Assembly: GCA_947460255.1 (NCBI GenBank)
Contig: CANHIS010000024.1
Coordinates: 1 to 40,517 of the forward strand
DNA: 40,517 nt
Source: Bacteroidota bacterium
GTDB taxonomy: Bacteria; Bacteroidota; Bacteroidia; M30B66
Reading direction: 5' to 3'
Shown here piece after piece: positions 2,473 to 30,343 of the stretch. A model generated the notes under the pieces. It was given only the letters and a program-made list of their open reading frames with translations. It ran no database searches and was not told the DNA's origin. A program made the translations under genes and the position numbers. Each line of letters opens with the position of its first letter. The stretch's first letter is position 1.

Positions 2473-5163
2473 CTATCGAATAACCTGAATTCGACCTGTA
2501 TAGTTTTTAGTTTCACAGGTAGTCTCAATCTTAACTTTATATACATACATTCCTTCAGGGACAAACTCACCATTCAGTTTGCCATTCCAGCCTTGATTTG
2601 TATCCGACCAGCTAAAAATTAAATCCCCCCAGCGGCTGTAAATTTCTGCATCTAATTTGGGATTTCCTGCTGTGTATAAACGGAATTCAGAATTGATTTG
2701 ATCTTCATTTGGTGTAAAGCAATTGGGAATATAAACTGGTTCATTTTCTAGAATGATCAAAGGAATTGAGTCTGTTGCCACTTCAGCATCGCAGCCGTTT
2801 AAGACGCATCTTAAAACAAGGCCGTTCATATCGGATGTAGATTCTATGGAGAGATCAGGAGATTCAACACCTGTAAATCCTGTAAGATTAAGCGGAACAA
2901 AATCACCTGAAGCGTCCAACACTTCCCATTGATACTCAATTCCTACGCCTTTTGATAGAACTTGTAACAAGAATGAGCTACCAGAGCATATTGGGGTTAC
3001 AATGGGCTGGGCTAATAAAACAGGAAGCCCATTCACAGTAAGTGTTAGAATAGTGCTGAACAAGGTTGTGCATTCTCCTTCTACTACACAGCGCAATTTA
3101 GCGAAGTGCCATGAAGCTGGCATGTTGGTTATCAACAAATTGGAGGTGTTTTCACCATTTACTCCAACGGTATTGAGTAAAGGCTGGAAACCTGAGCCAG
3201 TATTCAATTCCCATTGATAAGTACTTGCATTTTCAGCTTGAATGGATATCAACAATGATTCTCCTTCACAGCTTGTTGCCAGCGCCGGAATAGGTTCTAT
3301 GGTTAATTCGGGCAATAAATTGAGAGATGCATTGGAACTGATAAGTTCTTGGCCGCATCCTGATGCTTTTACACGAAAAATCCAATCCTGCATAGAATCA
3401 GTTACAGGGTTTATCGTGAGTATTGAACTACTAGAACCATTGTATGGAGCGTTACTTGGAGCGTTTTGAAAAGTCATTCCGCCATCATTGCTGTATTCCC
3501 ATTGCCAAATGTCTGAATCTGTTGCTGCTGATTCAAACTGTACTGAATTTCCAATGCAGGCTTCAGCATTGATCGGTTGTTGCGTGAAGACTGGAAAATT
3601 CTGCACTGATAATATAGCAGGAGTAGATTGAACAGGAATTCCACAAGTACCACTAACTACACATTGAAACAAAGCGTTATCTAATCCGGCAGTAACGCCT
3701 GAAAGCAACAAAGAATCTGTATTTACTTGACTATAAATGACGCCATTTACAAGTGGTGTATATGTGTTTCCACCGTCATTACTTATCTGCCACTGATAGG
3801 ATAAGCCAAGCCCCTCAGCATCGAAGTTGAATGCTGTATTTGCACCAAGACAAATTGACTGAGCTATAGGTTGGTTAAGAATTGATGGTCCAGGATTGTG
3901 GTTGATGTTTACTTCATTGGTGATTATTTCGGCACTGCAATTTGCCCAAAGCAAGCATCGATAAACACGACTTCCTGCGACAGTTGATGCACCATTGAGG
4001 TTTAAGTTGGACGTTTGAGTACCAGCAATTCCCAAATTGATATTGTCGGTTAAATTCACCCAAGCACCTCCAACAAATTCTTGCCATTGATAATTTGTGG
4101 CTTCTGGCGAGATTACAGTTAATGTGGTTGGAGCATTTTCACACAAATCCTGATTGATTGGTTGTTGGGTGATAGTGACCAATTGACCAGCCGTAATCTC
4201 AGCGGGATCGCTAATAAACTGTCCGCCACAACCAGAAATCACAACTTGGTAAAGATTTCCAATAAAACTGTTTGGGGCATTGACTAAGTTAAGCGTTGGT
4301 GTTGTACTTCCACTATAAATGGCTGAATTGGTAACATTGCTAAAAGTTGCTCCTCCGTTAGTACTGACTTGCCATTGATAAGTAACGGTGGTAATTGGAT
4401 TTCCGACACTAAATGAGATGTTTTGATTGGCGCACCAAGTTGTATCTGACGGTTGAGTTTGATTATCGGTAAAATTGTTGATGCAAACCGTATGGCTATT
4501 ATTAAATCCTCCAGTTGCAGATGTAAATCCCCAATAAACCATAGAATTTCCGTCGAAAATAGAATTTATGATATCGCCGGTATAGGAAGTTCTAAGTGTA
4601 TTATTAAAATAAACATCTAAGGTTTGTATAGCAGCCTGCCAATGGATTCGAACGGCATAATTGAGTCCGTTTTCGATATCTCCACAATTTGTTAGGGCGC
4701 AAACTGGCGGAGATAAAGAGGTTGGTCCGGTGTGAAACAGAACACCATCGCTTAAGATCCCGATATGATCCTCGGTAAGATCGTCGTTATCAGGATTGAG
4801 AAATGTATCAAATTCTATAAACAGAGATGGATTTACACCTTCGATACCCATTCCTCCACCTGTTGACCCCACATTGGTGCAAAGATTTTGAAGAGCGAAT
4901 ACAATTCCATCAGCACCAAAATCATTGAAGCCAAAATTAAGGTCTGCTGTGAGGTCGAAATCTTGATTAAGATCAGCTTGCCATCTATACCAAACAGCTC
5001 CGAAAGAAGTATTTTGGGCTTGGGTTAGTCGAAAGCAATTGTTACCTAAATCCGCCTGACCTCCATTTCCAATTAATTGAAAATCGCCTTGTGCACGAAG
5101 TAAACCGCATAGCTGAAAAAGCATTATTGCGGTTAGGAGGCAGATTCGTAAAGTTGGAAACAT
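2473..5163 (-). CDS. Secreted L-type lectin protein with Ig-like repeats and T9SS type B sorting domain
   Basis: An 896-residue predicted surface or secreted protein. A signal peptide (about 1-24, ending LLRAQ) precedes a legume/L-type lectin-like domain at about 25-235, recognised by FGADGIVFALQN, an EFDTFLNPDNDD segment and HIGI. Six Ig-like repeats of roughly 95 residues follow; each has an early Cys, a YQW motif and a late Cys. The last about 85 residues (YIPNCFTPNEDQIN, then RWGDLIF, then EGMYVYKVKI) are a gliding-motility-associated C-terminal domain, the type B signal for type IX secretion. The lectin domain suggests carbohydrate binding; the ligand is unknown. It has its own likely promoter at 5185-5215. 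Confidence 0.9.
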   Translation of the reverse strand: MFPTLRICLLTAIMLFQLCGLLRAQGDFQLIGNGGQADLGNNCFRLTQAQNTSFGAVWYRWQADLNQDFDLTADLNFGFNDFGADGIVFALQNLCTNVGSTGGGMGIEGVNPSLFIEFDTFLNPDNDDLTEDHIGILSDGVLFHTGPTSLSPPVCALTNCGDIENGLNYAVRIHWQAAIQTLDVYFNNTLRTSYTGDIINSIFDGNSMVYWGFTSATGGFNNSHTVCINNFTDNQTQPSDTTWCANQNISFSVGNPITTVTYQWQVSTNGGATFSNVTNSAIYSGSTTPTLNLVNAPNSFIGNLYQVVISGCGGQFISDPAEITAGQLVTITQQPINQDLCENAPTTLTVISPEATNYQWQEFVGGAWVNLTDNINLGIAGTQTSNLNLNGASTVAGSRVYRCLLWANCSAEIITNEVNINHNPGPSILNQPIAQSICLGANTAFNFDAEGLGLSYQWQISNDGGNTYTPLVNGVIYSQVNTDSLLLSGVTAGLDNALFQCVVSGTCGIPVQSTPAILSVQNFPVFTQQPINAEACIGNSVQFESAATDSDIWQWEYSNDGGMTFQNAPSNAPYNGSSSSILTINPVTDSMQDWIFRVKASGCGQELISSNASLNLLPELTIEPIPALATSCEGESLLISIQAENASTYQWELNTGSGFQPLLNTVGVNGENTSNLLITNMPASWHFAKLRCVVEGECTTLFSTILTLTVNGLPVLLAQPIVTPICSGSSFLLQVLSKGVGIEYQWEVLDASGDFVPLNLTGFTGVESPDLSIESTSDMNGLVLRCVLNGCDAEVATDSIPLIILENEPVYIPNCFTPNEDQINSEFRLYTAGNPKLDAEIYSRWGDLIFSWSDTNQGWNGKLNGEFVPEGMYVYKVKIETTCETKNYTGRIQVIR

Positions 5164-5184
5164 AGATTTTTCTCGAAGGCGATT

Positions 5185-5215
5185 CGAAGATATGAAATTG
5201 ATGGCAAGTCACAAA
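5185..5215 (-). promoter_or_regulatory. Predicted Bacteroidota promoter of the lectin gene
   Basis: On the minus strand a TTTG (5215-5212) is followed after exactly 19 nt by TATCTTCG (5192-5185). This matches the Bacteroidota TTTG-N19-TAnnTTTG consensus at 11 of 12 defined or near-defined positions. The gene starts 21 nt downstream, giving a leader of about 15 nt. Predicted only. Confidence 0.5.
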
Positions 5216-5421
5216 AATGACATGCGTGAATTCGTCTTAAATGCCTCTTCAAAACAAAAACGACAAATTAAATTCTAGAAACACCAAGTAATTGAATTTG
5301 ATATCGGGCTAATTGAATTATTTAAGTCAAATTGAATAGCTAATTGTGCCTAGGATTGATGAATTAATTTAATACATGATGATACATTTATAGGAAATTG
5401 ATTTATATAAATCGAAATGCT

Positions 5422-5483
5422 GCGGCAGCGATTGCAGCGGGTAGCGCCCGAAGGGACTACAAGCGTAAAGCGCGAAAGCCGCC
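5422..5483 (-). repeat. REP-like structured intergenic repeat, copy 1
   Basis: A GC-rich 62-bp element in AT-rich surroundings. The ends pair (GCGGC at 5422-5426 with GCCGC at 5478-5482), and an internal hairpin GTAG...CTAC (5441-5444 with 5457-5460) encloses CCC-gaa-GGG. Copy 2 at 8299-8359 matches at about 52 of 62 positions, and a diverged relative lies at 28787-28872. It starts 43 bp after the stop of the minus-strand gene at 5526, and is given in that gene's direction. Confidence 0.8.
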
Positions 5484-5525
5484 CAAATTTTTTAAACGTT
5501 AAGCAATCCCAAATGATTATCTCCC

Positions 5526-5756
5526 CTACTCTTTCCAAGGATTGGCAGCATGCATGGATCTAAATGCAGCAGCTACCTCAACAAGAAATTCATCGGTGAC
5601 TTTAGATTTTAGTCCGACGAGACCTTCAACCTCCATTTCATCCACTTTGTAGGTTTGTTCGTAAGGCCCAGCTTCGAATTTCACCATATATTTTCCATTC
5701 ATTTGAAAAATGGAAATTTTCAATTGTGGATGAGGAATGGTATCTATGATGCGCAT
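5526..5756 (-). CDS. Small conserved hypothetical protein downstream of tyrS
   Basis: A 76-residue soluble, acidic protein that I cannot assign to a named family. It begins with an alternating hydrophobic pattern (KISIFQMNGKYMVKFEAG) suggesting a small beta-sheet, followed by an amphipathic helix (DEFLVEVAAAFRSMHAANPW). The ATG is 3 bp after the tyrS stop, so it is almost certainly co-transcribed and perhaps translationally coupled. No signal peptide or membrane segment. Coding-type composition and tight spacing make it a real gene; function unknown. Confidence 0.75.
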   Translation of the reverse strand: MRIIDTIPHPQLKISIFQMNGKYMVKFEAGPYEQTYKVDEMEVEGLVGLKSKVTDEFLVEVAAAFRSMHAANPWKE

Positions 5757-5759
5757 AAA

Positions 5760-7028
5760 CTAGGAGAAATTAATTAAATAATAATTCTTTTTCCCTTTTT
5801 GAATGAGCATGTATTTCTTAGCGATTAAGGCTGATTCTGTAAGTATTCCAGCGGCATCTGCGTACTTTTCTTTATTAATTGAAAGTGCATTTTGCTGAAT
5901 CATTTTTCGTGCATCTCCTTTAGAATCGAATACTTGTGTATTAACGGCCAATAAATCGAGAATATTAATTCCTGATTTAAGAAGATTTAATTCAACTGAA
6001 AATCTAGGTACGCTTTCGAACACTTGTAAGAGCGTATTTTCGCTCATTGCTTCAAGTTGCTCGCGGGTTCCACTTCCAAACAAAATCGAAGTTGCTGCAA
6101 TGGCTGCTTGATATTCCTCTTCACCGTGAACAAGAGTTGTAATTTCTTGTCCGAGGCGTTTTTGCAAACTCCTAGCAGCAGGATTCACGCGATGTTCCTC
6201 GATGAGACTTTCGATTGTTTCTTGATCGAGAAAAGTGAATATTTTGATGTATTTCTCAGCGTCTTCATCAGAAGTATTTAGCCAGAACTGATAGAATTGG
6301 TAAGGGCTTGTGAGTTTTGCATCGAGCCACACATTCCCTTGTTCTGTTTTACCGAATTTGGAACCGTCGGCTTTGGTCACAAGTGGAACTGTTAAAGCAA
6401 ATGCTTCTCCGCCTCCAATTCGTCGGATGAGCTCAGTACCAGTTACGATATTTCCCCATTGATCGGAGCCTCCAAGCTGGAGTTTGGCCTTTTTATTTTT
6501 CCATAACCAATAGAAATCGTACCCTTGAATGAGTTGGTAACTGAATTCTGTAAATGAAATTCCTGTTTCAAGTCGTTTCTTCACAGAGTCCTTAGCCATC
6601 ATGTAGTTTACGCTGATGTGCTTACCTACTTCGCGCATGAAACCTAAGAACGAAAAATCTTTAAACCAGTCGTAATTGTTGACCAACTCAGCACCTTGAT
6701 TAAAATCGATGAATTTGCGAAGTTGAGATTCGATGCCAGCTACGTTTTTCTGTAAGGTTTCTTCGCTTAGCATCTTTCGTTCTTCTGATTTGAAAGAAGG
6801 GTCGCCAATCATACCGGTAGCTCCGCCAACGAGGGCGATTGGTGTATGTCCGTGGCGCTGAAGGTGCATCAACAAGATTATCTGCACCATCGAACCAATA
6901 TGGAGCGATTCTGCAGTTGGGTCAAAACCAATATATGCGGCTACTTTTTCTTTAGAAAGGAGTTCTTCAGTGCCTGGGATCATATCGTGGAGCAGACCTC
7001 TCCAGCGTAATTCTTCTACAAAATTCAT
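5760..7028 (-). CDS. tyrS: Tyrosyl-tRNA synthetase
   Basis: Charges tRNA-Tyr with tyrosine in the cytosol. At 422 residues it has the usual bacterial class I TyrRS length. The HIGH-type motif is HIGS (43-46) after FDPTAESL. The tyrosine-binding region includes [13 protein letters not shown] and LGGSDQWGN (185-193). The KMSKS-type loop is KFGKT (224-228), the variant used by the KFGKS-type subgroup. A C-terminal S4-like RNA-binding domain spans about 350-422. The small gene at 5526-5756 follows in the same unit. A -7-like TAATTTTG lies only 4 nt before the ATG. Confidence 0.97.
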
Positions 7029-7584: not shown

Positions 7585-8367
7585 TTATTGTCTACGCTTT
7601 AATATGATACATTTAAGGAATTCGATAAATGTTCTTCGTGCAAAGCAAAAGAACATTATTGTGCCTAAAAAATGTTCGAGGAAAAAATTTAAGCAAACGC
7701 AGCGATACGGCATGCCATTTTACTTTGAAATACCAAAACTTATACATACGTCACATTATCAATATATTAACTCTATTTAACAATAAAAAAAATTACAGTT
7801 TCGCAATTTATTGATTATCCGACATATGCAGCTGACGTTTACATAACAACTACTTTAAAGTGAATTTATGATTTTTAAAATCTTTATAAACAACGAATTA
7901 ACTGCGTGTAAAAATGAAACGTGTATAAACGATTAACGCCGTTTAACTCGAAATTATTTATTTACTTCGTCCTGGGGAGGAGGTTGGAGGCCCCCATAAA
8001 AAGTTAAATTTTTCGTGTTTAATTTACTTCATTATTGCCACTTAAAACACCGCCATTAGCTTCATTTTTAATGACAATCTAAGTTTTTCAATAAGCATAA
8101 TTTTTTTTAACCGATCTCTTGGATGAATTTTAAACTTTAATCTTTACAACTTAGCTTCAGTTAAGCAATGGCCCCAATTCATTCCCCACGAAAATTTGAT
8201 GTTTACCTAAATTGGATGCACATTAAAGTGCAGTAAACGCATCTAGACCTGATTAAGCATTTACCTCAACAAAACCCAAATGATAAATTAATTTGTGAGC
8301 GGCAGCGATTGAGGCAAGTAGCGCCCGGAGGGACTACAGCCGAAAGCGCGATTGCCGCCAAAATAAT
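7585..8367. other. Long AT-rich intergenic region
   Basis: 783 bp with no supported gene. It is very AT-rich, with many stops in all frames. Contents seen: a 9-bp inverted repeat (7628-7636 with 7649-7657, loop of 12) 44 bp upstream of the DUF1905 gene; an isolated GC-rich patch at about 7971-7995; and the REP-like copy 2 at 8299-8359 beside the adhesin stop codon. Small ORFs at 7568-7814 look like chance. Confidence 0.65.
8299..8359 (-). repeat. REP-like structured intergenic repeat, copy 2
   Basis: A 61-bp homologue of the element at 5422-5483, with 9 mismatches and one gap by hand alignment. The GCGGC/GCCGC ends and the GTAG...CTAC hairpin with its CCC/GGG core are both kept. It begins 8 bp beyond the adhesin stop codon, in the same orientation relative to the upstream gene as copy 1. 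Confidence 0.8.
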
Positions 8368-11300
8368 TTATTCAGTAACTATTACAGAGCCAATGTGATC
8401 GTTCTGATTTCCTGTCTTGTCGAAATATCGAACCTTGCAAACATATTGATCCAATGGAACAGGTTTCCCATTGATTGTTCCGTCCCAGCCTTTATCCCAA
8501 TCATTCGAACTAAAAATCAATTCGCCCCAACGATTGTAAATTCGCATTTCGAATCCTTCTGGCGACAAACCTGTAGCTTTAGGAAGAAACATGTCGTTCA
8601 AACCATCGGCATTGGGAGTAAATGCTCGAGGGATATAAAATGCTGTAAAGCCTCCGATATGGATAGTTTGAACCGCCTCATCGTAACAGCCATCTGTGCT
8701 AGTAACCTGAAGTGTGACTTCGAAAAAGCCGGTATCTTGGTAAGCAAATGCAGCGTCCGGACTCATCACATAACTTTGCGAAGGATCGCCGAAATGATAA
8801 GAGTAGCTTGTCGCTCCGATGCTTTGATTTTGGAAAGTGATCACCGGATTATCTAGAGAAGCTTCAAGCGGATTAGCTGCAAAACCTGCAATTGGTGTTG
8901 GGAACACTTCGATCGTTTCTGACCATGTCATTGAAGTTGAACAACCGTTTGTATCAGATGCATATAGTTGAATACCATAAATCCCCGGGAGATCAAAACA
9001 CGGTTGGATGTCTTGTTCTGTAAATGACTGTCCATTTGTGAACGTCCAAACAAATGAACTTGCGCTAGAGATCGCCGAAAGCTTCGCACAGAAAGGCGCA
9101 CATCCAGCACTGTCTACTGCGGAAATTGCTAAACTAGGAATAGGGTTCACCTCAACCAATATACTCTTATTGCCAGAACAGCCTGTTGAATCGGTAACTG
9201 TAACTGTGTAAAATGTGGTGGCTTGAGGATTGGCGGAAATGGCTTGACCAGTTACTCCATGATCCCAAACGAAACTGTATTGATTGTGCAAGCCTACTGC
9301 TGATGCCTGTAATATTGTTTGCTCCCCGATGCACAACACAGTGTCACCTTCAATGTAAATATCAAATGCTGGATCCGATGATAAATCTGCTGTCATTTGC
9401 TTTGTACAACCATTCTCATCAATTACATTAACAGTATATGATCCAGCTGCCAATCCAGCAATTCCAGGAGCAATTGAACCATTACTCCATTGGAAATTGT
9501 ATAAGCCAGTTCCACCAGTAACAATCGCAGTAATTGCACCGTTGTTGTTTCCATTGCAGCCTGGCTGATCGATTTCAAGAGTCAGCTCAATCGGACTCGG
9601 TTCCATCACTACATCAGAAACAGTTATAGAACATCCATTCAAATCAGTAATTGTACAACTGTAATTACCCGCTGGAAGATTGTTGTTCGCAACGGTTTGA
9701 GGACCATTCGACCAGCTAAAGCTATACGGCTGAGTCCCTCCATTTACTGAAAGCAATACTCTTCCATCGTTTGATCCATTGCAAGTAAGGTCTTCTGCTG
9801 TTGCAGTTGCCAACAATGCCAAAGGCTGATTGATTGTGAAGTTAACGTTCGCTGTACAGCCATTCACATCCAATACTTGAATTGTATAAGTGCCTGATGG
9901 CATACTATCGGGTAATGATGTTTGCAAACCTTGCCCCCACTGATAAACGTAAGGTGCCGTTCCTCCACTTACTGATAAATATACTCTACCATTGCCAACT
10001 CCATTACAAGTTGCATCAATCACTGAGTCAACTAATGCCGTAACCGGTGGAAAATCTTGCAAGGTTGCTGATGTCGTCTCGATACACCCTTGTGCATCTG
10101 TAATTGTTAAGTTGTATGCTCCCGGGTTTAGGTTTCCTATTATCGGATTGTTCACTCCTGGCACTTCTGTCCAGTCGTAGCTGTAAGGTGCAGTTCCTCC
10201 GGTAGATATAACTGTGATAGTTCCTCCACTGCTTCCACAATCTCCTGCAGTAACGGTTGTTTGAAGAAGAATAGGCTGTTGAGGCTGTGCAACATTAAAT
10301 GTGTCGGAAAATAAACAACCGTTTGCATCTGTAACATCAACTGTGTATTCACCCGTTGGGATGCTTGAAAGAATGTTGCCTGAAGCTCCTGTTTCCCAAA
10401 GAAGCTGCAAAGCACCGGTTCCTCCACTGAGGCTTAAACTAATACTTCCTGTAGATGAGCCATAACAATCAACATTCAAAATAACTGGCACCAAAGCAAT
10501 TTGAGGAGGCTGAGTAATCGTTATCGTTTCGGTGATTGTACATCCCGCGGCATCTGAAATCGTAACATATTGGGATCCAGCAGATAACATTGATGCCGTA
10601 TATGTAGCTTCCTCCGAACTCCAAGAAATCTGAAACGGAGCCGTTCCGCCAGTTACTTGTACTTGTGCCTCTCCATCGTTTCCACCAAAACAACTCACAT
10701 GACTTACATTGATAATCGAGGCTGAAATCGCAGCTGGTGAAGGAACACTAACGAATCTAGTTAACTCGCAATTGTTCGCATCACGGATCACCAATTCATG
10801 CATCCCAGCGGTTAGACTTCCAAAGAAAGGAGAATTCTGAAACAAAGACCCATCCAACGAAAACTGATAAGGCGTTTGTCCACCACTAGCTGAAAACAAC
10901 AAGGTGCCCGTTGATGCACTGCATGCCGAAGGCGTTACGGCCCAAGTGAACGAAATTGAATCGGGTTCAGTAACTACAGCGCTAGCTGAAACAACACATC
11001 CAGAATTATCAGTAATATTGGCTACATAATTGCCTGCAGATGCAGATGTTAAATCTTCGATGGTTACTGAATTGCTCCAAACTACTGAATATGGCGAACT
11101 GCCACCTGTAATGGTGAGGTCGATAGAACCGTCGGATGAATTGAAACAACTCACCGGACTAGCAATCGCCACAGCTTGTAGTGCTGATGGAGCAGTAATC
11201 GATAAAGTTCCTGTTTTCTGACAACCAGAAGCATCTTGCAAAGTGTAAGAATAGGCTCCTGCTGATAGATTAGTGATCGACAAACCTGTTACTCCGTTAC

Positions 11301-14300
11301 TCCAAGTGCAAGTGTATGGCGCTTGTCCACCGTTCACTGCCAATAAAATTGATCCGTTATTTGTTCCAGCACAAGTGATCTGTGTAACGGTTGGATTTAC
11401 AACAATCTCAGTAGGTTGAGTGATCGAAGCAATTCGATTTATAGAACAATTGTTCAGGTCGCTGATTACAACTGTGTAATTTCCAGCCACCAAATTAGAA
11501 GCTACAGCGCCAGTCGCTCCATTGCTCCATGAATAAGTATAGGAACCAGCTCCTCCTGTTGATGTAATTGTCGCAGACCCATTGTTTCCTCCGAAACATG
11601 AAACAGCTGTAGAAGAAACCGTCGCGCTAATCACTGTAGGTTGGGTAATTGTAAACGCTTGAACAGCGTTACACCCAGCTCCATCAACGACCATCACAGA
11701 ATAATTACCTGCCGAAATGCCTGTTGAATTATTGCCGCTGCCACCAGATGTCCAGAAATACGTGTAAGGTGTTGAGCCACCGTTGGCAGATGCGACAGCT
11801 GCTCCATCATTTCCTCCAAAGCAAGAAACGTTGGAGGTTACCGTTGCAGTTAAGCTCAGTGAGCCAGTATTGTTAACTGTTGATGTTGATGTAGTCGAAC
11901 ATCCTGTTGCATCTGTTACAGTTAAAGTATAAACACCTGCTGCCAAATTCGATGCAACTGTGGTGGATTGAACTGGAGTTGTATTCCAACTATATGCGTA
12001 AGGACCAGTTCCGCCCGACACAATCACCGAAATACTTCCATTGGGAGAACCGCAAGTCGCTTCAGTTACAGATGCTGTTAGATTCATTCCCGCAGGCTGG
12101 ATAATTGTTGCAGATGAAGTTGCAGAACATCCCGAGCCATCGGTAACTGTTAAGGTATAATTGCCTGGAATTAATGATGAAATCTGATTCGAAGATCCAC
12201 CGTTTGACCAACTGTAGGAAATCGGTGCAACACCTCCAACAACAGTCGAAACAATGCTTCCATTTGCTGCTCCAAAACAGTTCACATTTGTAGCATTCAA
12301 ACTCACCGAAAGAACCGATGCTGCATTGATTGAAAAGTTATCGTTGTCGGTGCAACCGTTATTGTCTGTAACTAATAATGTGTAACTACCAGCCGTTAAT
12401 CCAGTTGTTGAACTGGTTGTACTTCCATTGCTCCAAGCATAAGCATAAGGTGCGGTTCCTCCGCTAACCGTTGCTGAGGCTGTTCCCTGCGGGGATGTGC
12501 ATCCTGGTTGAACCACAGCCACAGTCGAAACTAAACTTGTAGGTTGTGTGATCGTTCCGTTTCTGGTTACTGTACACCCTGAAGCATCTGTTATAGTTAC
12601 ACCAATCGCTCCTGGCGACAATGAACTCAAGGAAGTTGCAGTTGATCCGTTCGTCCAAAGATAATTGTATGGCGCGGTGCCTCCTGAAAGGATTAAATTC
12701 GATTGTCCGTTGGCTGCTCCATTACAAGTCACCTGCGTGAGATTCAATGTTGCTGATAATGCAGCTGGCTGATTGATCGTAAAGTTTCTAGTAACAGTGC
12801 AACCGCGGTTGTCAGTTACAGTAACTGTGTAGCTTCCATTGGCTAATCCTGTAGCTGATGTTCCAGATCCACCAGAACTCCAATTGTAGGTGTAAGGTGA
12901 AGTTCCGCCAGAAGCAACAATGCTTGCAGATCCGGTTCCTCCAGCACAAGTTACAGGCGATGTCGTTACGGTTGCTGTAAGTGCAGTAGGCTGTGTAATG
13001 TTAAATGATTGTGTTGCTGAACATCCTCCAGCATCAGTAACCGTTACCGTGTAAGCTCCAGCCGCTAAACCATTCACACTAGCACCTGTTGCTCCAGTAC
13101 TCCATGAATAAGTATATGGTGCGGTTCCTCCTGATCCTAATGCTGTTGCAGATCCTGTCGCAGATCCATTACAAGTAGCAGAAACTGGATTCACATTCAA
13201 CGAAATTGAGCCTCCAGACAAAACAGTTGCTGTTGCTACTGTAGAACATCCCGTAGATGAATTTACCGCTACGGTGTAAGTTCCTGCAGACAAACCAGTA
13301 GCTGTTTGGGTGGTTTGCCCGTTGCTCCATAAATAGGTGTAAATCCCAGCCAATGCAGGTGTTACTGTAGCCGTTCCATTCGAAACACCGCAAGATGCAT
13401 TGGTTGCACTCGTGTTTACATTGAAACCACTTAGGTTGATTGTTCTTGTAATGGTATCGTTATAACATCCCAAATTAAGTATCAAGGTTACTGTGTATGA
13501 ACCAACTGCAGTAAAATTGTGCGACGGATTTAAGGTGGTTGAAGTATTTAAAGCGCCTGAAGCAGGATCCCCAAAATTCCATAGTACCGATTGTATAGCG
13601 TTCGCAGCACCAGCACAACTGCTAGATGAAACGGTTACGGATGGAGATACAAATCCAACATTTAAACAGTTTGCGGTAAAATTAAATGGCTGAATCTGAG
13701 GTCGAACATAAAATGAAGCCATGTTTGGCAATCCCATTCTTGAGATTCTTCCGGCAAGCGGGATGGCTGCATTCACAAAGCCACATCCTACACCAAGTGT
13801 GTTTGGGTTATTAATCACCGACAAAGAAGTGGTGTTTCGAGCAACATAGATTTTATTGTCAGGCCCAAGCTGTAATGAACCAATGAATGGCCCGAGGGAT
13901 CCAACCACATAGCGAGATGCTGTTATCGCTGCCGCATTGGCTGCACAAATATTATACTGTAGTAAGGTTCCTCCATTGGTTGATCCATAAACCACACGTC
14001 CATTAGGGGAAAACTCAGCTCCATAAAGTCCAATATCAGTTGCTAGTGTTACTGCATTCGACACCACACCCGTTTGGTTATTAAAATCGTAAAGCTCCAT
14101 GCGGTTTGTGCCTCCGGTTGAAAAACCGTAATAGCTTGCAAGAAGCTTGTTCCCATCTGGATTGGATTTCAACTGACCGTAAGACGATTGGTTGATGCCC
14201 GTAACTACCGCTCCTGCAGAACTCAAAACAGGAGTTAAATTCACACCGGCTGGAGTAATCAACCAAGTTCTAAATTGATTTGAATTCCAATCATGTGAAA

Positions 14301-14856
14301 CAATCCAAATATCTCTGTTATTGCAATGACGAACTGCTGTGAGTTTTTCGCAAGATGGAGTTTGGAGTGGAATATTTTTATTGGCAGTTACAGCGCCTAA
14401 ACCTGCCGATAAAGACATATTGATCTCCGAGTACTGAATTCCATCTGGTCCAACGTCTGCATCAGCTGTAAAAATGTAGTAGTTAGTGGCGCTATTTGGC
14501 CTCTGAACAATGATTCCAGATTGCGTGGATGAAGCGTGACCGTTGAGCAAAGTACCATTGGTCATCGGAAGGTGATTGGCATTCCACACAGTTACGCCAT
14601 CAGAGTAAAATAGAAGGTTTCCTAACTCATCCGACATGCTTGCACATCCTTCTGTGGTAACCAAAGCACCGTTTGTAAGTGCGACAGGCGTTCCAGAAGC
14701 AAAAGACACACCCGCAGTATTTCCAAAATACCAGTTGTTAAATCTTCCCGACTGAGCATCTGCATGAGCAAACCACAAAAAGGTAAATGCAAAAAACAGC
14801 ATGCTTAAAACATGGCTGCCCTTGTGGGTAAAAGTTTTATGGGTAGAATTCGACAT
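8368..14856 (-). CDS. Giant SprB-type adhesin with propeller domain and T9SS type B sorting domain
   Basis: A 2162-residue predicted cell-surface protein. A signal peptide (about 1-35, ending HADAQ) leads into a beta-propeller-like N-terminal domain (about 36-395) that opens with NWYFGNTAGVSF and contains EGCASMSDELGNLLFYSDG, a form common in large Bacteroidota surface proteins. A PKD domain with VLWNFGDP follows (about 405-475), then about 18 SprB-type repeats of about 75 residues (478-1829), two or three further PKD/Ig-like domains (to about 2070), and a type B sorting domain (YIPRAFTPNADGLND, RWGELIF, CKVRYFD). SprB is the gliding adhesin of Flavobacterium johnsoniae, but SprB repeats also occur in non-motile relatives, so gliding is only inferred. 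A GAGGAG purine run lies about 10 nt before the ATG. Confidence 0.92.
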   Translation of the reverse strand: MSNSTHKTFTHKGSHVLSMLFFAFTFLWFAHADAQSGRFNNWYFGNTAGVSFASGTPVALTNGALVTTEGCASMSDELGNLLFYSDGVTVWNANHLPMTNGTLLNGHASSTQSGIIVQRPNSATNYYIFTADADVGPDGIQYSEINMSLSAGLGAVTANKNIPLQTPSCEKLTAVRHCNNRDIWIVSHDWNSNQFRTWLITPAGVNLTPVLSSAGAVVTGINQSSYGQLKSNPDGNKLLASYYGFSTGGTNRMELYDFNNQTGVVSNAVTLATDIGLYGAEFSPNGRVVYGSTNGGTLLQYNICAANAAAITASRYVVGSLGPFIGSLQLGPDNKIYVARNTTSLSVINNPNTLGVGCGFVNAAIPLAGRISRMGLPNMASFYVRPQIQPFNFTANCLNVGFVSPSVTVSSSSCAGAANAIQSVLWNFGDPASGALNTSTTLNPSHNFTAVGSYTVTLILNLGCYNDTITRTINLSGFNVNTSATNASCGVSNGTATVTPALAGIYTYLWSNGQTTQTATGLSAGTYTVAVNSSTGCSTVATATVLSGGSISLNVNPVSATCNGSATGSATALGSGGTAPYTYSWSTGATGASVNGLAAGAYTVTVTDAGGCSATQSFNITQPTALTATVTTSPVTCAGGTGSASIVASGGTSPYTYNWSSGGSGTSATGLANGSYTVTVTDNRGCTVTRNFTINQPAALSATLNLTQVTCNGAANGQSNLILSGGTAPYNYLWTNGSTATSLSSLSPGAIGVTITDASGCTVTRNGTITQPTSLVSTVAVVQPGCTSPQGTASATVSGGTAPYAYAWSNGSTTSSTTGLTAGSYTLLVTDNNGCTDNDNFSINAASVLSVSLNATNVNCFGAANGSIVSTVVGGVAPISYSWSNGGSSNQISSLIPGNYTLTVTDGSGCSATSSATIIQPAGMNLTASVTEATCGSPNGSISVIVSGGTGPYAYSWNTTPVQSTTVASNLAAGVYTLTVTDATGCSTTSTSTVNNTGSLSLTATVTSNVSCFGGNDGAAVASANGGSTPYTYFWTSGGSGNNSTGISAGNYSVMVVDGAGCNAVQAFTITQPTVISATVSSTAVSCFGGNNGSATITSTGGAGSYTYSWSNGATGAVASNLVAGNYTVVISDLNNCSINRIASITQPTEIVVNPTVTQITCAGTNNGSILLAVNGGQAPYTCTWSNGVTGLSITNLSAGAYSYTLQDASGCQKTGTLSITAPSALQAVAIASPVSCFNSSDGSIDLTITGGSSPYSVVWSNSVTIEDLTSASAGNYVANITDNSGCVVSASAVVTEPDSISFTWAVTPSACSASTGTLLFSASGGQTPYQFSLDGSLFQNSPFFGSLTAGMHELVIRDANNCELTRFVSVPSPAAISASIINVSHVSCFGGNDGEAQVQVTGGTAPFQISWSSEEATYTASMLSAGSQYVTISDAAGCTITETITITQPPQIALVPVILNVDCYGSSTGSISLSLSGGTGALQLLWETGASGNILSSIPTGEYTVDVTDANGCLFSDTFNVAQPQQPILLQTTVTAGDCGSSGGTITVISTGGTAPYSYDWTEVPGVNNPIIGNLNPGAYNLTITDAQGCIETTSATLQDFPPVTALVDSVIDATCNGVGNGRVYLSVSGGTAPYVYQWGQGLQTSLPDSMPSGTYTIQVLDVNGCTANVNFTINQPLALLATATAEDLTCNGSNDGRVLLSVNGGTQPYSFSWSNGPQTVANNNLPAGNYSCTITDLNGCSITVSDVVMEPSPIELTLEIDQPGCNGNNNGAITAIVTGGTGLYNFQWSNGSIAPGIAGLAAGSYTVNVIDENGCTKQMTADLSSDPAFDIYIEGDTVLCIGEQTILQASAVGLHNQYSFVWDHGVTGQAISANPQATTFYTVTVTDSTGCSGNKSILVEVNPIPSLAISAVDSAGCAPFCAKLSAISSASSFVWTFTNGQSFTEQDIQPCFDLPGIYGIQLYASDTNGCSTSMTWSETIEVFPTPIAGFAANPLEASLDNPVITFQNQSIGATSYSYHFGDPSQSYVMSPDAAFAYQDTGFFEVTLQVTSTDGCYDEAVQTIHIGGFTAFYIPRAFTPNADGLNDMFLPKATGLSPEGFEMRIYNRWGELIFSSNDWDKGWDGTINGKPVPLDQYVCKVRYFDKTGNQNDHIGSVIVTE
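9370..13425 (-). repeat. Array of about 18 SprB-type repeats inside the adhesin gene
   Basis: Tandem coding repeats of about 225 nt. The protein pattern is C-x-G-x-x-N/D-G, then GGTAPYxYxWSNG, an AGxYTVTVTDxxGC segment, and an ITQP linker. Codon usage differs between copies, so the DNA is not highly repetitive and recent expansion is not evident. Copies 11-15 are the most divergent, with partial loss of the PYxYxW motif. Confidence 0.88.
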
Positions 14857-28786: not shown

Positions 28787-28872
28787 GGGCCACGGGCGCG
28801 CCTTACGTTACAAGTCCTCGCCCCGATTGAAAAAATCGGGACTGCGGGCTTTCCACTGCAGTCGCTGGGCCG
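28787..28872 (+). repeat. Diverged REP-like element next to the RAYT-like gene
   Basis: A GC-rich 86-bp structured element. Read on the plus strand it shares an ordered skeleton with the minus-strand reading of copies 1 and 2: CGCG(C)CTTTACG-like, then AGTCC, then GGGC, then CTGCAxTCGCTG. It has an extra 7-bp hairpin (CCCGATT 28822-28828 with AATCGGG 28834-28840, loop GAAAA), a second stem (GACTGC 28840-28845 with GCAGTC 28858-28863), and GGCC at both outer ends. Homology to copies 1 and 2 is judged by eye. Confidence 0.6.
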
Positions 28873-29088
28873 TTTTTCGGAAATCCGATCCCCTTATTGA
28901 ACTAATGCATTCAAAATTAATGAAGTATCAAGATTTTTTTCACAACAACTGTGAACAGAATCCTTCCACTTCTAGCATTTCGACTAAAAGTGCTTTTTAC
29001 ATTTGGAGTTAACGATCGGCATGAAACAACATTGCAAACTTCATACTGTAGGTTTCAGGTGGACGAATACAAAAAAGAACAACAAAAC

Positions 29089-29535
29089 ATGTCTCATTCT
29101 TCTTCAAAAATTTGGATTCATGCCATTTGGTCGACCAAGGATCGATTGCCTATGATACGGCCTGAAATGGAGTTGTATCTATATGGCTTTATTTCAAAAT
29201 TATTAGATGAGATGGGCTGTCCGTCGCGCATACTAAGTGGTACTGAAGACCATGTTCACTGTTTGTTTTTATTGAATCCTCAGCGCTGTGTAGCAGAGGT
29301 ACTGAAACATGTGAAGGGCAGCAGTTCTCATTATGTAAATTTTGAAAACTTGGTTGCTGAGAAATTTTCGTGGCAGAAGGGATACTTGGCTTTTTCGGTA
29401 TCAGATTCAAGTATGGAGAAGGTTGTGGAGGAAATAAAAGGTCATAAGGAATATCATTGTGTGAAAGGATTTATTGAGGAGCACAATGATTTACTAAGGA
29501 TGCATGGGGTTTATCCGTCAGTGAATACTGGGTAA
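29089..29535 (+). CDS. REP-associated tyrosine transposase-like protein (Y1/HUH family)
   Basis: A 148-residue protein of the IS200-like Y1 transposase fold, in the RAYT-like group by size and context. The ATG at 29089 starts the family similarity (SSKIWIHAIWSTKDRLPMI). The HUH metal-binding motif is HVH (55-57) in GTEDHVHCLF, followed by KHVKGSSSHYVN and WQKGYLAFSVS, all typical. The catalytic helix, normally YIxxQ before an HH pair, reads EIKGH (115-119) before KEYH, so the Tyr and Gln appear replaced. RAYTs are single-copy domesticated relatives linked to REP repeats. A perfect palindrome follows 8 bp after the stop and a REP-like element precedes the gene. Confidence 0.88.
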   Translation: MSHSSSKIWIHAIWSTKDRLPMIRPEMELYLYGFISKLLDEMGCPSRILSGTEDHVHCLFLLNPQRCVAEVLKHVKGSSSHYVNFENLVAEKFSWQKGYLAFSVSDSSMEKVVEEIKGHKEYHCVKGFIEEHNDLLRMHGVYPSVNTG

Positions 29536-29543
29536 TTCGGTAC

Positions 29544-29595
29544 TTTTTCTTTTCACGCAGTGACGGTTTAAACCGTCACTGCGTGAAAAGAAAAA
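29544..29595. repeat. 52-bp perfect palindrome after the RAYT-like gene
   Basis: Two uninterrupted 26-nt arms meet at GTTT|AAAC (centre 29569/29570) with no loop. Each arm contains CACGCAGTGACGG and an outer T5-C-T4 tract (or its complement). It lies between convergent genes, but the T tract is 5' and the A tract 3' on both strands, the reverse of an intrinsic terminator. It could extrude as a cruciform or be bound by a dimeric protein or the transposase. Confidence 0.9.
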
Positions 29596-29974: not shown

Positions 29975-30343
29975 TTATTCCTCCAATGCAACAAACTTAT
30001 CCCCTACCCGCTCAAGTTCGGTTCCAAATGGCAAATGTAGATAATGACGAATAGCATTGTCTAAAACAATTACCATGTCAACATCTGTAATAAATGAATT
30101 CTGCTCCTGTTCCATGTACTCATCATCTTCCTTGCCTGATAAAAAACGCCAGCCACTATCGAAATCATCTTCAGGTACTTCCCTGTACATAAAGCCAACT
30201 TTCATCCCTTCATCGAGTATATGGCGGGTAACTAAACAAGCGCCGTAATCTACCGGCGGACGGTTACCTTTCCCCTTTGTATTTTTCTTGTTGTTCACAC
30301 CGCAAATAATGGAAAAATCATGTTTGTTTTTAAGGTTTCTCAA
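29975..30343 (-). CDS. DUF2185 / Imm33-like protein
   Basis: Up to 122 residues. The core GACLVTRHILDEGMKVGFMYRE, in pieces, followed by DSGWRFLSGKEDDEYM is the DUF2185 signature; this family is also listed among polymorphic-toxin immunity proteins (Imm33-like). The start is unclear: no ATG fits. A TTG at 30343 is the first possible codon after an in-frame stop at 30350, and a GTG at 30298 would give 107 residues, closer to family length. No toxin gene is seen next to it, so an immunity role is only a possibility. Its upstream region is shared with the divergent tetR-type gene. Confidence 0.75.
   Translation of the reverse strand: MRNLKNKHDFSIICGVNNKKNTKGKGNRPPVDYGACLVTRHILDEGMKVGFMYREVPEDDFDSGWRFLSGKEDDEYMEQEQNSFITDVDMVIVLDNAIRHYLHLPFGTELERVGDKFVALEE

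Follow-up and report, generated by a model that had tools for sequence, protein, structure and literature searches.

The window, i.e. the entire 40,517 nt stretch that was analysed, carries a long copy of a structured repeat, here called R1, in the gap between two divergent genes, one for an amidohydrolase and one for a Y1/HUH protein. The Y1 gene is followed by a perfect palindrome. The order amidohydrolase, R1, Y1 gene, palindrome, MIase and Imm33 is common to the window genome (G000) and to G002, a genome of the same family. The features concerned are:

5422-5483, plus strand: R1 repeat, short form, found with the family model; the orthologous G002 site carries a 94% identical copy
8299-8359, plus strand: R1 repeat, short form, found with the family model; the orthologous site in G002 holds no R1 copy
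28788-28872, minus strand: R1 repeat, long form, found with the family covariance model; lies between the amidohydrolase and Y1 genes, which are divergent
28822-28840: variable central hairpin of the 28788-28872 copy, CCCGATT ... AATCGGG, paired otherwise in the G002 orthologue
29089-29535, plus strand: Y1/HUH gene, IS200-like, 148 aa, matching the Y1_Tnp profile and fitting subclass 1.2; residues of the Tyr motif lost
29251-29259, plus strand: HUH motif H55-V-H57, intact
29431-29433, plus strand: codon 115, Glu; catalytic Tyr in 75 of 78 readable sequences
29443-29445, plus strand: codon 119, His; metal-binding Gln in 77 of 78 readable sequences
29544-29595, no strand: perfect 52-bp palindrome, within the family a conserved companion of the Y1 gene
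29561-29578: conserved core of the palindrome, TGACGGTTTAAACCGTCA; outer arms re-paired in the G002 orthologue

Next to the Y1 locus, at 29975-30343 on the minus strand, lies a gene with a domain of the immunity-protein family Imm33. Further away, 8368-14856 on the minus strand encodes a protein of 2162 aa with many repeated Ser/Thr/Gly-rich units and, at its C-terminus, a gliding-motility-like segment; it is probably secreted to the cell surface.

Comparison with relatives places the start of the Y1 gene at the ATG at 29089. Its product exceeds the cut-offs of both Y1_Tnp (69.7 bits, cut-off 23) and the model for IS200 (58.6 bits, cut-off 55); the model for REP-associated transposases, NF047646, was failed with 25.3 bits (cut-off 80). 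A Y1 fold is predicted by AlphaFold2 (pLDDT 84). Among PDB entries the modelled fold comes closest to hairpin-DNA complexes of the IS608 and ISDra2 transposases (E down to 4e-8); the RAYT structure 4er8 is a weaker match (E 7e-5). In the classification of TnpA-Y1 proteins, RAYTs proper form class 2 and exhibit a Y---NP motif. Subclass 1.2, a part of class 1, is described by DH[IV]H, Y---Q--HH, a C-terminal extension, low copy number and occurrence in Bacteroidota, and its members are said as a rule to lack typical terminal structures (Quentin et al. 2018, PMC6006769). The window protein shares with this subclass DH[IV]H, the W-Q motif and the C-terminal extension. Low copy number and host phylum are likewise in accordance with it: the window genome holds three Y1 genes, one of the window lineage and two others with an intact Y---Q motif, and nearly all relatives come from Bacteroidota. 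A Y---Q--HH-like motif is present in the relatives (YIKNQK.HH). The window copy differs in that it keeps DHVH but has E and H in place of Tyr and Gln (EIKGHKEYH), and the relatives differ from the published description in that they carry perfect palindromes in three-hairpin modules. No Y---NP motif was found. On the whole the protein fits TnpA-Y1 subclass 1.2, and not the class-2 RAYTs. The initial annotation had called the gene RAYT-like; a Y1/HUH gene is indeed located at 29089-29535, but its features point to class 1, subclass 1.2, and not to the TnpAREP class. Measured against IS200/IS605 insertion sequences, the HUH-Y1 fold is present and the intact nucleophile is missing in the window copy. 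Similar to IS608 and ISDra2, its best fold matches, the window family combines an HUH core with hairpins adjoining the gene. Their hairpins are short and bulged, however, whereas those of the window family are long and perfect, and for the window family a low copy number and no sign of recent transposition were seen.

The consensus of R1 is a long imperfect hairpin in which two similar half-modules, AGSGATTGnAGCGGAAAGCCCG and GGACTTGnAGCGAAAAGCGCG, flank a variable central hairpin that the short copies lack. With the family model the copy at 28788-28872 scores 56 bits on the minus strand. A leave-one-out covariance model, built from ten other copies without this one and without its orthologue, recovered it with 53.9 bits (E=1.3e-11, 370 kb searched), the sole match outside the R1 family in that search having E=0.98. 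In pairwise tests the likeness to the copy at 5422 beats shuffled sequences (8 of 2000 equally good), whereas that to the copy at 8299 does not go beyond chance (239 of 2000). The kinship with 8299 is therefore carried by the family model. The claims that the element at 28787 shares a skeleton with the repeats at 5422 and 8299, and that it is longer by an extra hairpin, are borne out on this basis: all three belong to one family, and the additional hairpin is the variable central one.

Pairing within R1 is well conserved. In 44 copies from three genomes, aligned by fitting to the model, 97.5% of the pair cells hold standard pairs compared to 75% after shuffling, and nine of ten pairs show changes on both sides; the same pairs were visible in an earlier 13-copy MAFFT alignment. 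The covariation score amounts to 0.54; shuffling gave 0.15 and sliding 0.12 at most. Coding sequence makes up about 85% of what was sampled, yet 41 of 43 copies avoid long ORFs. R1 is hence extragenic, dispersed and palindromic, with conserved pairing, as is typical for REP elements. It resembles REP/BIME-like repeats as an imperfect palindrome with compensatory changes; unlike them it is 55-110 bp long and built of two similar half-modules around a variable central hairpin, and a cognate enzyme was not found for it. A known RNA family was rejected, as R1 gave no Rfam match at gathering thresholds. Roughly 25-28 copies were detected in the window genome. Within the class, R1 is present in 54 of 149 sampled genomes, where copy counts are lower bounds because only part of the candidates was scored.

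R1 is an old family whose copies have for the most part been passed on at fixed sites. For six copies of the window genome (those at 5422 and 28787, plus four on other contigs) G002 has an R1 at the orthologous position, with identities of 85-97% in the element and 47-90% in the flanks. For 28788-28872 the values are 85% and, for the 60-bp flanks, 47-65%; the central hairpin of this copy differs from that of G002 yet is re-paired. Since the copy at 8299 has no counterpart in G002, gain or loss of R1 does occur. At the amidohydrolase-orthologue loci examined in other family genomes no R1 match was found. The neighbours of these orthologues differ, so that the locus offers no empty-site comparison. 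At another site of the window genome (L335, G000:C27, ~2954-6480) a segment of ~3.3 kb is absent from the orthologous G002 site; an R1 copy with a counterpart in G001 lies at its right edge.

The R1 element had been proposed to be the REP of the neighbouring enzyme. The occurrence of R1 does not depend on the presence of a Y1 gene. G001, which belongs to the same genus and is 100% complete, has no Y1_Tnp match and the most R1 copies, at least 107 (107-110); G003 (86% complete) has 80 copies and no Y1_Tnp match either. In total, 6 of the 54 R1-positive genomes are without a Y1 or class-2 RAYT match. R1-rich relatives without any such match, named at the outset, together with a lack of binding, as what would speak against the proposal, therefore exist. 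Y1 genes are nevertheless more frequent in R1-positive genomes (48/54) than in other genomes of the class (65/95; Fisher p=0.005, kinship ignored), and R1 was found near 9 of 88 class-1 Y1 loci, where a uniform spread would give about 0.6-0.9. The significance of this adjacency depends on the intergenic bias assumed (P=0.005 at 3-fold, 0.07 at 5-fold, 0.38 at 8-fold); co-occurrence and adjacency might also arise if R1 and Y1 genes have a liking for intergenic DNA in common. The nine loci span several Y1 clades with other hairpin types. We read the weak general excess as such a common liking or as an old link to another Y1 clade, and not to the window enzyme.

A further possibility, though on the whole an unlikely one, is that R1 is not autonomous and owed its former spread to a different Y1 clade or to a class-2 RAYT, e.g. 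of subclass 2.6, which has since been lost, for example from G001. R1 co-occurs class-wide with NF047646 (p=0.016), the excess near Y1 genes extends over several clades, and subclass 2.6 is said to be flanked by atypical structures that are copied elsewhere (PMC6006769). In contrast, 16 of the 54 R1-positive genomes have no class-2 match, and most comparable R1 copies occupy orthologous sites, so that recent spread is not seen. A direct tie to class-2 RAYTs was rejected, R1 lying alongside only 1 of 31 class-2 loci.

Far less probable is the proposal itself, according to which R1 serves the RAYT-like enzyme as its REP and forms with gene and palindrome a single unit in movement or action. It could draw on the class-wide co-occurrence, on the nine adjacent loci, on G022, whose sole R1 copy found lies ~190 bp from its sole Y1_Tnp match, and on the synteny of all parts in G000 and G002. 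Against this stand the R1-rich G001, the different clades and hairpins of the R1-adjacent Y1 genes, and the missing Tyr of the window enzyme. Further, just two of the gene's 80 close relatives have R1 nearby: one is the syntenic G002 orthologue, and the other, in Lutibacter, has it 2.5 kb off. R1 as the REP of this gene was accordingly rejected as the main reading. Of the proposed three-part unit, gene and palindrome are conserved together, and the tie of R1 to the gene is not supported.

The palindrome at 29544-29595, downstream of the Y1 gene, consists of two 26-nt arms with 100% complementarity and a spacer of 0 nt, centred on GACGGTTTAAACCGTC. Folded as single-stranded DNA it reaches z=-11.5. 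Window genome and G002 share one core, around which the arms read CACGCAG/CTGCGTG and TACTTAT/ATAAGTA, respectively. This core occurs once per genome and, among ten family genomes, only in these two. In a 385-kb sample of the window genome no perfect palindrome with a stem of at least 11 was found. A dispersed REP was thus rejected for the palindrome in this genome.

To judge the link between palindrome and gene, 76 relatives across Bacteroidota were used that had been picked solely by two peptide motifs. Perfect palindromes (stem at least 11) number 87 in the 44 kb within 300 bp of the genes, compared to 4 in 359 kb of sequence at distances above 1 kb, an excess of ~176-fold. At least one lies within 300 bp of the gene at 57 of the 76 loci, on both sides at 18; the remaining 19 relatives have no palindrome of this stem length within that distance. 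The centre is GGTTTAAACC in 74 of the 87 and GAATTAATTC in 7. The arms vary symmetrically: complementarity was demanded for selection at eight positions, and beyond these, at positions 9-14, it still holds in 54-57 of 57. In intact relatives the palindrome is part of a three-hairpin module, AATGGTTAAAACCATT - ~25 nt - CATAGCCCACGGTTTAAACCGTGGGCTATG - ~20 nt - AACCGTTTTAACGGTT, located before the ATG, after the stop codon or at both places, and sometimes in tandem. The small hairpins of the module are gone from the window lineage. By its build the window palindrome is clearly of the same type as those of the relatives. The data indicate that it belongs with the Y1 gene in a conserved gene-palindrome unit, a part of the initial annotation that is upheld, and that the palindrome, not R1, is the conserved companion of the gene. 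These modules look new, because subclass 1.2 has been described as generally lacking terminal structures. A literature search, itself incomplete, gave no relevant paper with the R1 or palindrome sequences.

RAYT/TnpAREP systems, i.e. the class-2 REPtrons, and TIRtrons (PMC3733652) likewise combine a Y1 enzyme with adjoining palindromes, sometimes in tandem arrays, and some TIRs are self-complementary (PMC3733652). Unlike RAYTs, the window protein lacks Y---NP and stays below the NF047646 cut-off, and no GTAG-tagged REP hairpin was seen at the locus. Unlike in REPtrons and TIRtrons, palindromes of the window family rarely turned up in sampled sequence at a distance from the gene; in G093, for example, there is none in 362 kb away from the gene. 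Flanking REPs of its own with dispersed copies are not associated with the window gene: the palindrome core is unique in the genome, and R1, although dispersed, shows no tie to the gene. That the palindrome is a mere bidirectional terminator unrelated to the enzyme is improbable, since despite its position between the convergent Y1 and MIase genes and its strong fold on both strands, the stem is followed on both strands by an A tract instead of a U tract, an order of A and T tracts which makes intrinsic termination unlikely, and the same palindrome type lies upstream as well as downstream of the relatives' genes with the enrichment given above.

The residue counts at codons 115 and 119 refer to 82 aligned sequences, 78 of them readable at the Tyr position. 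Apart from the window with its Glu, the exceptions are G006 and a record identical to it, both with Asn in place of Tyr. In a tree that is poorly resolved and based on few columns, Tyr was lost twice separately, in the window lineage and in G006; the G006 copy keeps such a palindrome too, upstream. In IS608 the Gln partner takes part in metal binding (PMC6006769). Tyr is intact in the G002 orthologue, which shares 74% identity with the window protein. For this pair a dN/dS of 0.076 was obtained, similar to the 0.05-0.07 of neighbouring genes, and the last 43 codons with the Tyr helix are more relaxed (0.27). The window gene was thus under constraint for the greater part of its history; as synonymous sites are saturated, the low value is no proof of constraint after the loss of Tyr.

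Taken together, we consider with a probability of roughly 80% that two independent things adjoin at this locus: a Y1/HUH gene fitting subclass 1.2 together with its cognate palindrome, and a separate, old R1 repeat. In intact relatives, by analogy to IS608 and ISDra2, a dimer of the enzyme would most likely bind the palindrome hairpin in single-stranded DNA, Tyr would cut beside the hairpin, and the gene-palindrome unit, which may formerly have been mobile, would be moved or maintained in very few copies. The window lineage has inherited its unit at one syntenic site. With Tyr, its Gln partner and the small hairpins gone, the window protein can at most bind the palindrome; cutting by Tyr chemistry would not take place, and the protein may still bind its one palindrome. 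From its sequence features we therefore take the window copy, the only one of its lineage in the genome, for a relic that can no longer cleave or for a hairpin binder put to new use; on this reading the old R1 next to it is unrelated. A kept binding role is doubtful; otherwise the copy would be in slow decay. Only tentatively do we suggest the wider picture of a widespread Bacteroidota Y1 family with three-hairpin modules, in which the window lineage was repurposed as a cleavage-dead hairpin-binding protein that lost Tyr and Gln and kept the HUH core and a re-paired palindrome at one inherited site. R1, an old structured extragenic repeat, would have been spread by some enzyme other than the one found here.

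With these findings the little-studied HUH-Y1 subclass 1.2 gains a likely DNA partner in a phylum in which REP/RAYT-like pairs are hardly described. The natural copies without Tyr, twice arisen, are ready comparisons for asking if an enzyme of this kind may retain a function once it no longer cuts. Additionally, R1, a second, strongly structured repeat family, is separated from the Y1 system.

Other subclass-1.2-like Y1 genes, at L194, L192, L193 and L191 (G005, G057, G119 and G022), have in their flanks another kind of short hairpin, ACCCC-GAAG or TTCG-GGGGT, frequently in many copies, which suggests that each Y1 clade has its own hairpin. At L189 and L255 (G081) palindromes CCCCACGAAGGGTTTTAAACCCTTCGTGGGG, a clade-specific variant, lie on either side of the Y1 gene. 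Another repeat type was observed in G002 (L351, G002:C1, ~10975-11157), where several short hairpins CCCACGGACTNNAGTCCGTGGG share one intergenic gap.
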